Assembly: GCF_013912375.1 (NCBI RefSeq)
Contig: NZ_JACETV010000004.1
Coordinates: 62,001 to 126,000 of the forward strand
Direction of reading: 5' to 3'
Origin: Emticicia sp. BO119
GTDB lineage: Bacteria; Bacteroidota; Bacteroidia; Cytophagales; Spirosomataceae
Length of the DNA stretch: 64,000 nt
This document shows, piece by piece, positions 3,108 through 44,847 of this stretch. Positions within the stretch are counted from its first letter, which is position 1. Each line of letters opens with the position of its first letter. The notes beneath the pieces are model-generated. The model saw only the letters and a list, made by a program, of their open reading frames with translations. It did not search any database and had not been told where the DNA came from. The position numbers and the translations under genes were made by a program.

Positions 3108-6100
3108 TTAGAATTGTACTTTTAGTCCGGCGTTGAACGACCTCATTAACGGATATTTACCATAATCAACCCCGGGAGTTAAGTTTGACCCATTGTTATA
3201 ATCCACCTCAGGATTATACCCTCTGTATTTCTGGAACGTGAACACGTTATCAGACGAAACGTAGATACGCACGTTTGAAATTGTATTTTTTGTCAAAGCT
3301 GCCATGTTCCAGTTGTAACCAAGAGTGATGTTTGTAATTCTCAGAAATGAACCATCATTCAGGTAGAATGTCGACAAACGAGTACTATTACTTTGTGTAC
3401 CACCACGCGAGGCTCGATAGATTTGTCCATTGCCCGGATTTTCGGGTGTACGGAAGCGTTCGTCTACAATGGCATACTGGTTACCAGAGCCTTCCATATT
3501 CAGGTTATAATAGTTTTGTCCGTCAAGCACCATATTGCCTTTAGTACCATTCGCAGAAATAGAAAGGTCAAATTTCTTGTAGCGTCCTGAAAGATTGAAA
3601 GCGTATATAAAATCTGGATATGGATTCCCGATAATAGTTTTATCAAGGTCATTCACAATACCATCTTTGTTTGTATCCTGAAACAGCAAGTCACCTGGCT
3701 GAATTTTTGTGCTTTGAGATGCCGAACGTGCCGGAATATCATCATTTACATCAGGGGCATTATTGATAGCATTGGCTTCTTCCTGTGTTTTTACCATACC
3801 AATTACTTTAAATCCGTAGAACATACCCACTGGTTGGCCTTCCATTGTAATGTGGGTATCATAACCGCGTTCGGCACCACGGGTAAGAATAGTAGAGGCA
3901 CCACCCAGGTCAAGTACTTTGTTACGATTCATTGAGATATTTCCGCTGGCACGTAATTCATAATCCTTAGATGATAATACGATTCCGTCTAATTGAAAAT
4001 CGAAACCTCGGTTGTTGATTTTTGAATCAGGTAAGTTGGTTAGCATCGAAGTAGAACCTGATACCGCCGTAATTGACTTTGAGAACAAAAGGTTATAGGT
4101 ATAACTATCGTAGTAGTTAGCAATTACTTGCAGACGATTGTTGAATAGACCTAAATCTAAACCAATATTGGTTTGTGAGGTTGACTCCCAGCCTAATTTA
4201 TCATCGCGGAAAGCTCCCGGATACATAGCTGTTTGTACGGCATTACCGATAACAGTACCTGATTTACCTACCACTTGTTGGAAATTGTAAGCTCCAATAC
4301 CGTTATTTCCACTCACACCCCAGCTGGCACGGAACTTTAACGAAGACCTTTCGCCCAACATATTTTTGTAAAATACCTCATCAGAAATTGTCCATCCACC
4401 AGAAATAGAAGGGAAATAAGCCCAGCGATTTTTAGGACCAAATAGTGAAGAACCATCACCACGGAAAGAAGCCGTAATATGATAACGATTCAGATAGTTA
4501 GCATTAAAACGACCGAAACCGGAAGCCATGGCATATTGGGTAATACCTGTTCCTCCACCCCGTGTAAAGTTGGCAGGGTCTGAACCTCCCCCTGTAATGT
4601 ATGGTATTTTATCGTCGGTAAATCCGTTGGCTGTTACAGCAATTACATCTGTAAGGTGCGATTGAGAAGAAGCACCCAATACACCGCTCAAATGGAAATC
4701 TTTTACTTTTTTATTGAAGTTAAGGGTAAATTCTGTTAGATAATCTCTTTCATCTGTACGGGTATTCTGTGCATTGGCTGCCGTAATTGCCTGAGGAGAA
4801 TATGGCGGATTTACACCTGATGTAATACTTGTCGGGCGATAGTACTCCCAGTTGTTTGTATAATTATATGTACCAAAAGACAATTTAGCGGTCAATGCAT
4901 CCATGATTTTATATTGTCCGTACACATTATACGTAGCTCTTGTTGTTTTACGGAAGTTCTTTACCATCTGCGTGTAAGCTATCGGATTTTCGATGTCGCT
5001 TTGGAAGGCATAATCACTTGATTGTGATGACATTCCGTATTGTGCCGGAGTGCCGTCTGCATTGTATGGTTTCAGGAAAGGCAGATAAATCAAAGCTGCC
5101 ATCACTGGGCTTTGGTGGAAACGCCCTTCCGTTACCTCATGATTCTTTGTATCAGTATAAGCCAGATTAGCCCCAATTGTTATCTTTTTCGAAATATCCA
5201 AATCAATGTTCGAACGCAAATTGTATTTTACAAAGTCGGTATTAAGCATAATACCATCCTGATCCTGGTAACCACCTGATACGGCGTAGCGCACTCCGGT
5301 ACGTCCGCCAGCAATAGATAGATTATGTCTGTGGTTTCCTGCATTACGATATAATTCATCCTGCCAATCAGTATCGTACTCAGGTTTTTTGATTGTTCCT
5401 GTGGCAAAGTCGTACATATAGTCAGGTATTCTGATTGTATTCGCATTTACGTTGTTAGTACGGGTTGTACGAACCGTGTTGTTATCTTTTACGTATTCAT
5501 CAGACCATACTTTACCCTGCGAAATCATCAAATCTTTATAGGTCTTGTTGTGGGCATCTACAAACAAATCAAAAAACTGTTGTGCATTCAATACATTAAC
5601 CTTGCGCGCCAACTGATTGATTCCGAACTGATAATCGTAGGTTACAGTTGTTCTTCCTTCTTTCCCTCTTTTGGTAGTAATCAAAACCACCCCACCCGAA
5701 GCTCTTGAACCATAGATAGCAGCCGAAGCAGCATCTTTCAATATTTCAACAGACTCGATGTCTTCCATATTCAGGAATAGGTCTCCATTGGCAGGATAAC
5801 CATCTATTACATACAATGGGTCTGAGCTGGCATTGATTGAACTTGTACCGCGTACACGAATTTTTGTAGTATTGTAAGGAGCCCCACTTACCTGCGAAAT
5901 CTGAACCCCGGCTACTTTACCGACCAAAGCCTGCCCAACGGTTGGTGTAGTCAGGTTCAGTTCACTTGCTTTTACACTGGCAATTGCCCCTGTGATATCG
6001 CTCTTACGCATCGTCTGATAACCCACTACCACAACTTCTTGTAATGAACGCGCATCGGCTTCCAGTGCCACATTTACATTTGAACTCACAGGTGCTTCTG

Positions 6101-41492: not shown

Positions 41493-44045
41493 TCATTCAA
41501 AACCAACCTTGTTTTTTTCCATCAATGCTTTTTGGGCTTGATAGGTGGAAAGAAACGCTTGATAATCGGTAGGGCTGCTTAAAGCGTGTAGTTTTTCAAG
41601 CCCTTCTTCAGCATAGTTTTCTACCCCTACTTTTAACGATTGCAATATGTACATTTTCAATAATGCCGTGCTATTGTCATTGACCTGTAAAGCCTTGAAA
41701 ATAAGGTTGTAGGCTTCATTCGGTTTTTTCAGTTTTGAATTATAAAAATCTACCGTTTTGCTGATAAGAACCGGGTTTAGCGGACTTATCGCTAAGGCCT
41801 TATCGTAATCAGCTTTGGCTTTAACATTTTTCAACAGCTCTTCTGCCTGTGCCTGCTGATATTCAGGAACACTCATTATATAATCTTGTTTTTGTAAAAC
41901 TTCAGCAGATGCTTTGTCTCCGGCCCTTGTCAGATGTACAATAGCTTTATCGACAACTCCTTGCTGTAAATACCACATCCCTACAACCTGATTATACAAT
42001 GGTTTTTTTCTGGTTGAGTCATTGGCAAGGACCGTCAGTCTTTTTAAACCTTCTATCTTATCTTCTCGATAATAATTCTGCGAGGCAATGGCAAATTCCA
42101 GATCCTCATAAAAACTCTCATTCCCTGTTTTTTGTTGAATCTTTTGTAAATCTATGCTTGAAAAGGGTATATTTGCCAAAGCTGCTGTAGTAAGGTTATA
42201 AATCAACGCAAATTGGCTGACATTCAATATTGAATCGCTTCCCGGTTTTATAATCCATGCATTGAAATCATTTTTTTCGTTATTCAATGCCGATAGATTG
42301 GCTAAAAGGCTCATTGAGGCATTTGTTGTTTGTCCACGTGCATTCTTCAGACCATTTTCTTTATTATACTTTAATTGGTATGCCAGCAAATTAGCCTCGG
42401 CCAAATCGCAATCTGTACAGTTTTCTTTAGCCCGGTTCAGATAATAAAATGTTGAGTCAGTTACCTTGGTTTTTTCATACAACCAGGCCAGATTGGTTAA
42501 TAACTGCTGACTCTCCGGGAACTTACGCACACCTTCCTGCAGGGTAAATAGCGCATCAAAAAACATATCCTTTTCCTGCAAAATCTTGCTTAATCCAGCA
42601 TAAGCAAAAGGGCTTGGGTTTTTCTCCAGAGAATTTTTCAGAAAAGCCCCTGTATTATCCTTATCATTTGCTTCCATTGCCAGTGTAGCCAGTGCGTAGT
42701 TAGACTTATGGTTGCGAATATCATTATGTGTAGCCTCTTTATAAAAGGCCTCAGCGTAAGAGAGGTCATTAGTTGCTTTATAAAAATCTGCTATCTGATT
42801 ATAATATCCTGCCTTAGCCTCATAATATACATAAAAGGTTTTTAATGAAAACAGCGTAACCACACCGACTAATGCGCCTAAACGAAATAATGAAAGTTCT
42901 AAAAACTGCGGGCGATACAAAATCCGGTGAATTGGGAGCCCTTTTTGTAAGGCTTGTATAAAATTAAGTATCACATACAAGAAAAAAGCAAAGCCCATTG
43001 TCAGATGTACGACTACTATAAAACTCTCAAAAGCATCAATTAACGGATCATTGCCTGTGGCGTAGGCAAGGCCGATAGTTGCTGATGCAATAATAGCCAG
43101 ACCCGCATACAACCATACACCAATGGTTCTGAAATTGAAATGAGCAGACTCATCGGCAATATTTCTGAAACCCCATACCCCTAAAACAGTTGAAATAACA
43201 TATAAAACAAGCGGGCTTATGGCAAGGATATTCCAGTCGATGTATTTATGTTTCTCTAAAAACATCAAGAGAATATTCAGCAGATAGATACTCGAAATAA
43301 TGAGAAATTGATTTAGTGAGCTTTTGCCTCTGATACCTGAGTTTGAGATAACCCAAACCAGTGATGCCACAATTTCATGTGCAATTAACAGTATAAACAG
43401 CACTGTAAAGACAATTGCCGATAAAAAGCTATAAGAGGCAATAGCCAAAAAAGGATGACTTATCTTTGAAAAATACTGAATAACCCCAATCAAAACGGTA
43501 TTCAATAAAAGAAACCATGAAAATCGTTGAATGAAACTGGTTTTGATAGCAAAATTATTGAAGTAGAAAGCTAATCCGGCAACTACAGCGAAAGCTATCA
43601 GAAAACCTGTTTGATTTGTAAGGTTGAAAACATTCTCTAATCTGAAAGTAATCAATACTCCTGCTAAAGCTACCATACCCCCTAAAAACCAGTAACGAGG
43701 TAAAGCACAAAAAGCAGACATTAGCAGATTAAGCCCTATTACAAAAAAAACCAGAAAAACATAGGTTGCCCAGGTATTGGTTTGCATTATCGAAGCTAAA
43801 AAACGCTCTTTTACTAAATAGTTATTCCCATGAACAGTATATTTTAGCTGTCCGTCTGAGAAACTATCGGTAATGGTCGGAATTTCATCTAATTCGCTGA
43901 GGGTATCCCAATGAATTACATTTTCAAGACCTTGATACTTATAAACTCCTAACAGTGCTAACGATAGCAGTAAAGCGATTAAAATACACAAACATATTAA
44001 CTTTTCTGTTTTAGACCAATTTTGCCAAAAAACTAAACGATACAT
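41493..44045 (-). CDS. Large polytopic membrane protein with C-terminal TPR repeats
   Basis: An 850-residue protein I do not recognise by name. About ten or eleven hydrophobic helices fill residues 15-405 (for example LICLCILIALLLSLALLGVY, TWATYVFLVFFVIGLNLLMS, SLFRLGALVGVVTLFSLKTFY). A series of TPR-like helix pairs follows from about 420 to 830 (AEAFYKEATHNDIRNHKSNYALATLAMEAN; LLTNLAWLYEKTKVTDSTFYYLNRAKEN; DYDKALAISPLNPVLISKTVDFYN). The TPR half would be outside or inside the membrane according to helix count, which I cannot fix. It probably shares a transcript with the LolD-type ATPase. The start at 44045 faces the parS/DnaA-box region. Confidence 0.8.
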   Translation of the reverse strand: MYRLVFWQNWSKTEKLICLCILIALLLSLALLGVYKYQGLENVIHWDTLSELDEIPTITDSFSDGQLKYTVHGNNYLVKERFLASIMQTNTWATYVFLVFFVIGLNLLMSAFCALPRYWFLGGMVALAGVLITFRLENVFNLTNQTGFLIAFAVVAGLAFYFNNFAIKTSFIQRFSWFLLLNTVLIGVIQYFSKISHPFLAIASYSFLSAIVFTVLFILLIAHEIVASLVWVISNSGIRGKSSLNQFLIISSIYLLNILLMFLEKHKYIDWNILAISPLVLYVISTVLGVWGFRNIADESAHFNFRTIGVWLYAGLAIIASATIGLAYATGNDPLIDAFESFIVVVHLTMGFAFFLYVILNFIQALQKGLPIHRILYRPQFLELSLFRLGALVGVVTLFSLKTFYVYYEAKAGYYNQIADFYKATNDLSYAEAFYKEATHNDIRNHKSNYALATLAMEANDKDNTGAFLKNSLEKNPSPFAYAGLSKILQEKDMFFDALFTLQEGVRKFPESQQLLTNLAWLYEKTKVTDSTFYYLNRAKENCTDCDLAEANLLAYQLKYNKENGLKNARGQTTNASMSLLANLSALNNEKNDFNAWIIKPGSDSILNVSQFALIYNLTTAALANIPFSSIDLQKIQQKTGNESFYEDLEFAIASQNYYREDKIEGLKRLTVLANDSTRKKPLYNQVVGMWYLQQGVVDKAIVHLTRAGDKASAEVLQKQDYIMSVPEYQQAQAEELLKNVKAKADYDKALAISPLNPVLISKTVDFYNSKLKKPNEAYNLIFKALQVNDNSTALLKMYILQSLKVGVENYAEEGLEKLHALSSPTDYQAFLSTYQAQKALMEKNKVGFE

Positions 44046-44059
44046 AGACGATTAGAAAG

Positions 44060-44075
44060 TTTTCCACGTGAAACA
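44060..44075. promoter_or_regulatory. parS-like site
   Basis: TTTTCCACGTGAAACA differs at one position from the B. subtilis spo0J parS sequence and at two from the palindromic consensus TGTTTCACGTGAAACA. It lies in the 142-bp divergent spacer, immediately before two DnaA boxes. ParB binding is an inference. Confidence 0.5.
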
Positions 44076-44080
44076 CCCAC

Positions 44081-44100
44081 TTATCCACAGGTTATTCACA
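44081..44100 (+). promoter_or_regulatory. Two tandem DnaA boxes
   Basis: TTATCCACA (44081-44089) and TTATTCACA (44092-44100) both match TTATNCACA exactly, in the same orientation and 11 bp apart, about one helical turn. The pair together with the adjacent parS-like site suggests a replication-related locus; a DnaA-regulated promoter is the simpler alternative. Confidence 0.5.
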
Positions 44101-44130
44101 CATCATGATAAATATTTGAGCCGTGAAGAT

Positions 44131-44149
44131 AACGCAAAATCTTTGCGTT
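44131..44149. promoter_or_regulatory. Operator-like palindrome ahead of the phosphatidylserine decarboxylase gene
   Basis: AACGCAAAATCTTTGCGTT has perfect 8-bp arms around ATC. It ends 3 bp before a -7 element, TATATTTG (44153-44160), so a protein bound here would cover the promoter of the following gene. Confidence 0.5.
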
Positions 44150-44187
44150 GATTATATTTGTGCTTTTAAAAAACCAGCAGACTGACA

Positions 44188-44847
44188 ATGACACTACACA
44201 AAGAGGGTACAGGAACCATTTCTCTAACAATTATCGGCTTAGTAATTCTTAATGGATTAATACGGTACTTCTTGCCAGACAATGCCCTTGTGCATGCTAT
44301 ACTCTTGGGTGTAAGTATCGTTTTACTGATTATCGTTCTTCAATTTTTCCGTAAGCCTACCCGCCGGACAACCATTCATTCCAAACACGTCATTGCTCCT
44401 GCTGACGGCAAAGTGGTGGTGATTGAAGAGGTGGTAGAAACTGAATATTTCAACGGCCCTCGCAGACAGGTATCTATCTTTATGTCGCCTATTAATGTCC
44501 ATATCAATTTTAACCCTATTTCTGGTATTGTTTCTTACTTTAAATATCATGCCGGGAAATACCTGGTAGCCTGGCATCCTAAGTCGAGCACAGATAACGA
44601 AAGAACAACCATTGTAGTAAAACATGAGAATGGCACAGAAGTACTTTTCCGCCAGATAGCCGGGGCTTTGGCTCGTCGTTTATGCTGGTATGTAAAAGAA
44701 GGACAAAAAGTAGAGCAGGGCACCGAATTCGGCTTTATTAAATTCGGGTCAAGAATTGATATTTTCTTACCTCTTGATGCTAAAATTCTGGTTAATATTG
44801 ACGACCGCCCGGTAGGCGGAGAAACCGTGATTGCCGAACTGGCCTGA
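44188..44847 (+). CDS. Phosphatidylserine decarboxylase-family protein
   Basis: A 219-residue, archaeal-type (short) phosphatidylserine decarboxylase proenzyme. Two hydrophobic segments at the N-terminus (about 12-55) anchor it; the core shows APADGKVVVIEEV, VSIFMSPINVHINFNPISG and the self-cleavage site FIKFGSRIDIFLP, where cleavage at Gly-Ser near residue 188 would create the pyruvoyl cofactor. It makes phosphatidylethanolamine in the inner membrane. No phosphatidylserine synthase gene is adjacent. The promoter carries an operator-like palindrome. Confidence 0.93.
   Translation: MTLHKEGTGTISLTIIGLVILNGLIRYFLPDNALVHAILLGVSIVLLIIVLQFFRKPTRRTTIHSKHVIAPADGKVVVIEEVVETEYFNGPRRQVSIFMSPINVHINFNPISGIVSYFKYHAGKYLVAWHPKSSTDNERTTIVVKHENGTEVLFRQIAGALARRLCWYVKEGQKVEQGTEFGFIKFGSRIDIFLPLDAKILVNIDDRPVGGETVIAELA

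Follow-up and report, generated by a model that had tools for sequence, protein, structure and literature searches.

The window analyzed here, a stretch of 64,000 nucleotides (G000:C23:62001-126000, written as genome, contig, and positions), belongs, judging from its relatives, to the genus Emticicia (Cytophagales) or close to it. It carries just upstream of the psd promoter what we read, with a probability of roughly 55%, as an auxiliary origin-proximal parS that is fused to two DnaA boxes and conserved in Emticicia, the binding of ParB and DnaA being predicted from their sequence motifs. The case for this reading is made by the improbability of the motif cluster, by its conservation relative to neighboring DNA, and by the recurrence of the same parS core in a tandem pair beside mnmG.

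A parS-like palindrome and two DnaA boxes upstream of psd

The element consists of three motifs that together span 41 bases. The parS-like palindrome TTTTCCACGTGAAACA (44060..44075, unstranded) is a putative ParB loading site, and it is followed by two predicted DnaA boxes on the + strand, box 1 with the sequence TTATCCACA (44081..44089) and box 2 with the sequence TTATTCACA (44092..44100). The boxes are in tandem with a gap of 2 bp and start 6 and 17 bp past the end of the palindrome. An earlier note on this DNA, made from the letters alone, had placed the three motifs in a divergent spacer and the palindrome one base from the parS of B. subtilis. All three are indeed found there, and the palindrome has one mismatch relative to TGTTNCACGTGNAACA, though two relative to TGTTTCACGTGAAACA. 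One of its half-sites is off consensus, with a T instead of a G at position 2.

The entire element is contained in this intergenic spacer of 142 bp (44046..44187, unstranded). On one side lies psd (44188..44847, + strand), which encodes a phosphatidylserine decarboxylase of 219 aa (PF02666, E 7e-37), and on the other a divergent gene of 850 aa (41493..44045, - strand), whose product gave no match at E 0.001 in a Pfam search. The -7 promoter element of Bacteroidota has the consensus TAnnTTTG. The octamer TATATTTG (44153..44160, + strand), which begins 53 bp beyond the end of box 2 and is the same in all 13 aligned spacers, fits this consensus, and we take it to be the probable psd promoter. The psd upstream region has a second conserved block (44110..44139, + strand), in which 28 of 30 columns are identical between the window, E. 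aquatica, and G006. A search of the spacer by eye made out no promoter for the divergent gene, and no Rfam family reaches its threshold within 43900-44300. Just before the psd -7 element there is also a perfect 8-bp inverted repeat, AACGCAAA/TTTGCGTT, with arms at 44131-44138 and 44142-44149.

The cluster is rarer than its parts

Single motifs of this kind are explicable by chance, as the earlier note had held. TTTTCCACGTGAAACA is the sole site of the window within two mismatches of TGTTNCACGTGNAACA, where 0.20 are expected. With a parS-like site at this tolerance in 16 of 100 shuffled versions of the window, the palindrome alone is weak evidence. The exact box TTATNCACA occurs four times in the window against 3.3 expected, which is no excess. 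The combination, which the note had thought unlikely to be random, is another matter. The exact tandem pair TTATNCACA-NN-TTATNCACA is found once in the genome of 6,570,506 bases, as the sole zero-mismatch match, and a first-order Markov estimate gives 0.01 per genome (the reversed-pattern control for the pair permitted two mismatches, and its counts are uninformative on the exact pair). For a parS core accompanied by two boxes in no more than 30 bp, the expectation is about 1e-5 per genome, an approximate figure that assumes independence. It is the motif cluster, rather than any single motif, that carries the signal.

Conservation within Emticicia

The palindrome core precedes psd in 10 of the 11 genomes of the genus. 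An alignment of 13 spacers shows an unchanged palindrome in 10 of them and one with two substitutions in AE-37; box 1 is unchanged in 11. Strain 21SJ11W-3 has a decayed palindrome and box 1, an exact box 2, and retains both the promoter and the block at 44110-44139; the spacer of Emticicia sp. CRIBPO is without palindrome and without box 1. Box 2 also varies elsewhere, being TTTTGCACA in the E. aquatica clade and TTTTACACA in G006. Between the clades, palindrome and box 1 are identical, whereas the four-fold sites of psd match at only 24 of 77 positions. When the window, E. aquatica, and G006 are compared, identical columns amount to 16 of 16 in the palindrome, 9 of 9 in box 1, and 7 of 9 in box 2, i.e., 32 of 34 motif columns against 67 of 108 in the remaining spacer (Fisher p 0.0002); the psd four-fold sites are identical at 13 of 74 positions, i.e., near saturation. 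The conservation of the motifs exceeds the neutral level, and the spacing between them is fixed. Ordinary promoter constraint is strong here and is part of this signal, because the remaining spacer, above all the second block (28/30), is also conserved.

A phylogenetic tree of psd (654 columns) groups 21SJ11W-3 with the window, C21, and E. agri (98/98), groups CRIBPO with Lacihabitans (93/98, under the tool's own mark), and leaves the sister relation of the two Emticicia clades unsettled. The simplest history, although not a proven one, is one gain in the ancestor of Emticicia and one loss. Since one Emticicia strain lost the site, it is not essential. Several of the spacers from metagenome-assembled genomes are near-identical to one another, so that the independent lineages are few (two clades, one with G006 as outer branch). 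Such paucity, together with the strain that lacks the site, is what one would expect of a chance cluster kept through common descent. We consider this very improbable, and rejected it, given the expectation of about 1e-5 per genome and the 32 of 34 unchanged motif columns next to psd four-fold sites that are near saturation.

Genomic parS sites and partition proteins

How many equal parS-like sites the genome holds, a point on which the earlier note had made its reading depend, varies with the pattern. The pattern KTTNCACGTGNAAM, which was widened so as to include the site under study, gives few (four in G000, against about 1.8 expected and one for the reversed control), and the two-mismatch search with GTTTCACGTGAAAC gives 19, our palindrome among them, with no excess over the reversed-pattern control (17). 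Three of the four KTTNCACGTGNAAM sites of G000 are grouped within 32 kb of a single contig. They are the psd site and a tandem parS pair directly before mnmG (C23:137,775 and 137,813), outside the window and 32 kb from the psd site. Across the genus, KTTNCACGTGNAAM gives 2-6 sites per genome and 44 in total (9 for the reversed control). The tandem pair is present in 10 of the 11 genomes (it is absent from G002), and it adjoins mnmG in all nine that were checked (G009 left out). Within the family sample, the tandem pattern was found in 17 of 61 genomes, against 1 of 61 for the reversed control, and mnmG is present at 15 of the 17 tandem loci that were fetched (one further place in G309 left out).

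The 14-mer core of the psd site, TTTCCACGTGAAAC, is identical to one of the tandem copies beside mnmG in G003, G004, G006, G008, and G010, so that this variant evidently counts as parS in those five genomes. They belong to the other Emticicia clade, not to that of the window, where the tandem copies beside mnmG are of the GTTYCACGTGGAAC type. A further parS-like core, TTTACACGTGTAAC, is shared by three related genomes, at G000:C27:79545, G001:C31:60296, and G007:C31:55871, on a contig different from that of psd and mnmG.

The identity of the core weighs on a second reading of the element, that of a purely transcriptional operator through which DnaA, and perhaps ParB, would tie the expression of psd and/or the divergent gene to the cell cycle, with no role in segregation. 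The element may indeed act as a DnaA/ParB-regulated promoter, as the earlier note had also proposed. The element sits between divergent genes, close upstream of the invariant TATATTTG, its core is next to psd in every one of the 10 carriers even though the distance to the box-dense region described below varies where it was measured, and DnaA is a known transcription factor according to a review (PMC8203912). What the operator leaves unexplained is the parS character of the palindrome, the exact core of which doubles as a tandem copy at mnmG, and we hold it to be a serious but unlikely alternative.

The earlier note saw no dnaA, parA, or parB in the window; dnaA and parB with its ParA-like neighbor are on contig C1, not C23. 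This ParB-family gene is over the family cut-off and stands beside a ParA-like frame, named by its KGGVGKTT motif only. The best PDB matches of its product are about equal for ParB (1.6e-47), Spo0J (4.3e-47), and Noc (6e-47), and we favor ParB over Noc because of the ParA-like neighbor. Searching the genome for SMC_prok_B returned nine matches, none over the cut-off (the best has 24.7 bits against 567.35), which makes partition by ParA a likelier output of the system than SMC loading. A Hi-C study that included two Bacteroidota likewise reports no known condensin in either (PMC10197239). A second ParB-family gene over the cut-off is found at G000:C28:183271-183804, as well as on G007:C2 and G009:C25, and possibly comes from a plasmid or an integrated element.

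Position relative to the replication origin

The earlier note had placed the element at or near the chromosomal origin. The second half of this claim is borne out by the three KTTNCACGTGNAAM sites within 32 kb and by a switch in the sign of the GC skew in this interval, and the first half is not supported by the distribution of DnaA boxes and by the skew of G003. Box density was scanned in sampled intervals around psd and mnmG in seven genomes, and in these intervals the densest 400-bp window is 3.6-7 kb from the mnmG pair, not at psd. The distance from the psd site to the top box windows is about 36 kb in G000, 37 kb in G007 and G001, 59 kb in G006, 107 kb in G003, and 120-123 kb in G004; in G005, where palindrome and box 1 were lost, the spacer is about 31-33 kb from them. 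The psd site of G000 ranks fifth in DnaA-box density. The same genome has, at C23 ~141,413-142,253 (~141.4-142.3 kb), a box-rich stretch of 841 bp that is a candidate oriC. Its G+C content is 26.8%, it holds 3 exact boxes and 6 with one mismatch, and none of its frames is open for more than 70 codons.

Cumulative GC skew was computed for G000, G003, G004, G005, and G007, with G001 and G006 left out. In G005, a genome in one contig, all seven 20-kb stretches after position 0 are positive and all seven preceding ones are negative. Here psd is at 17.8 kb, and the parS beside mnmG is 8.7 kb to the other side of position 0. Its coarser samples are positive in 7 of 10 cases between 250 kb and 2.5 Mb (one is zero and two are negative) and negative in 7 of 10 between 2.75 and 4.9 Mb. 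The cumulative minimum of this genome is near 0, between psd and the box-dense region and about 17 kb from psd. For G000, 6 of 6 stretches are negative before 126 kb and 8 of 11 positive after it, and the minimum at 114-126 kb is about 8-20 kb from psd (106 kb) and 16-28 kb from the box-dense region. The minimum of G007, at 116 kb, is 8 kb from psd (108 kb) and about 30 kb from the box-dense region, and that of G004 is at the edge of the scan. On the skew, which the earlier note had proposed to check, the genomes are divided: the minimum is near psd in G000 and G007 and far from it in G003, where it is found at 1,255 kb, about 82 kb from psd (1,173 kb), and the dense window is at 1,279 kb. A clear separation of psd from the skew minimum is seen in G003 only. 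Being weak and intermingled with the orientation of genes, the skew fixes an origin domain that spans both psd and mnmG rather than a base.

That the psd site is itself the chromosomal origin, oriC, is in our view highly improbable. Its parS and DnaA boxes stand side by side, the sign of the skew flips no more than tens of kb away, and the minimum is nearer psd than the box-dense region in G000 and G007, whose skew is compatible with an origin there. But the site has two boxes, against the 3 exact and 6 one-mismatch boxes of the 841-bp stretch near mnmG, and the densest box windows of the scanned intervals are near mnmG in the seven genomes. The cumulative skew of G003 keeps falling for about 82 kb past the site, and 21SJ11W-3 is without palindrome and box 1. 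On these grounds we disfavor it: the psd element is origin-proximal, but probably not oriC. The box counts also bear on a datA-like site for DnaA titration that would be beside a parS by happenstance. Both boxes of the element are strong and located in the origin domain, but two are few and larger clusters are close to mnmG; we give this explanation the least credit of all.

Some box clusters of the domain are at or inside coding frames. In G000, a dense window with 7 sites lies in a coding gene at ~144.8 kb, and clusters beside the likely oriC are at L002:2057-3003 and 4940-5170 (G000:C23 ~144.1-147.2 kb), at and inside an M48/MORN-repeat gene and a frame that looks radical-SAM-like by eye (L002:4505-5482). 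G007 and G001 have similar clusters at comparable places, as do, in part, G005, G003, and G004. The clusters may amount to an extended origin embedded in genes.

A possible mechanism and its precedents

If the element is an auxiliary parS with DnaA boxes, ParB, encoded elsewhere, would load on the psd palindrome and slide onto neighboring DNA, thereby enlarging the partition complex that forms from the tandem parS of mnmG. DnaA would sit on the two boxes, about 67-86 bp upstream of the putative start site of psd, where it could read out the DnaA level or ATP state both to the partition machinery and to one of the two flanking genes, psd or the divergent one. We infer effects on both segregation and psd transcription. 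The variable distance between the site and the box-dense region (~31 to 123 kb) is loose for a partition site.

The closest precedent is the DnaA-bound centromere of Caulobacter crescentus, where, in the account of a review, the parS region is bound by DnaA (Mera et al. 2014, cited in PMC6399470) and DnaA signals the partitioning of the main centromere (PMC6399470). As far as this account goes, the Emticicia locus is similar in having parS and DnaA boxes together near the origin; unlike the main centromere of Caulobacter, it is a supplementary parS that is separated by tens of kb from the likely origin and lies in the promoter region of psd, with binding predicted. The same review describes rctA/parS2 of Vibrio cholerae chromosome II, which is bound by ParB2 and the initiator RctB (PMC6399470). 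There too, as described, a centromere-type site also holds initiator sites, but the initiator and the replicon are different and the likeness would be convergent at most. Like the chromosomal parS of ParABS systems, the palindrome of Emticicia is one mismatch from TGTTNCACGTGNAACA and in the origin domain of a genome that encodes a ParB-family gene and a ParA-like frame. It differs from the usual parS by the T in its half-site and by being joined to DnaA boxes, and the genome differs from the usual ParABS carrier in having no SMC_prok_B match over the cut-off. As in the DnaA-regulated promoters of the review cited above (PMC8203912), consensus DnaA boxes stand upstream of a predicted promoter; psd does not feature in that review, which has no occurrence of "psd" or "phospholipid".

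A bolder version of this scheme would make the 41-bp element a composite ParB/DnaA switch that sets psd expression and ties initiation, origin segregation, and phosphatidylethanolamine synthesis together, with psd in turn altering the lipids that act on DnaA. Membrane lipids act on DnaA in E. coli. We regard such a loop as a rather improbable extension.

Chromosome segregation is apparently little studied in Bacteroidota, and the open-licence PMC literature has, among the matches listed, no title on such an element or on the oriC of Emticicia. A natural parS-DnaA composite, if true, would be a clean system for the study of initiator-partition crosstalk and of its reach to a lipid gene. Its value as a test system comes from a close relative without the site and from the tandem parS pair elsewhere.

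Distribution outside the genus

We scanned 77 of 80 psd loci, L074, L075, and L106 having been dropped with too little upstream DNA. A parS within three mismatches in the 500 bp upstream of psd was found at 9 loci and not at the other 68; none of the 66 scanned loci outside Emticicia and its kin (21SJ11W-3 and CRIBPO set apart) carries one. Among 291 genomes of the order, a set that represents the genus by G000 alone, 9 have a CACGTG core with a DnaA box after it, and the reversed-pattern control gave none. There are 10 such loci besides that of the window. Eight of them look like chance, being inside stop-to-stop frames of at least 120 codons, and two, L201 and L202, are intergenic and come from two genomes of one genus in another family of the order. 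Both have a convergent intergenic region (L202:1380-1560) with the CACGTG palindrome TTCCACGTGGAACA beside TTATTCACA and several TTATCAACA/TGTTGATAA repeats, which is perhaps an oriC with an internal parS.
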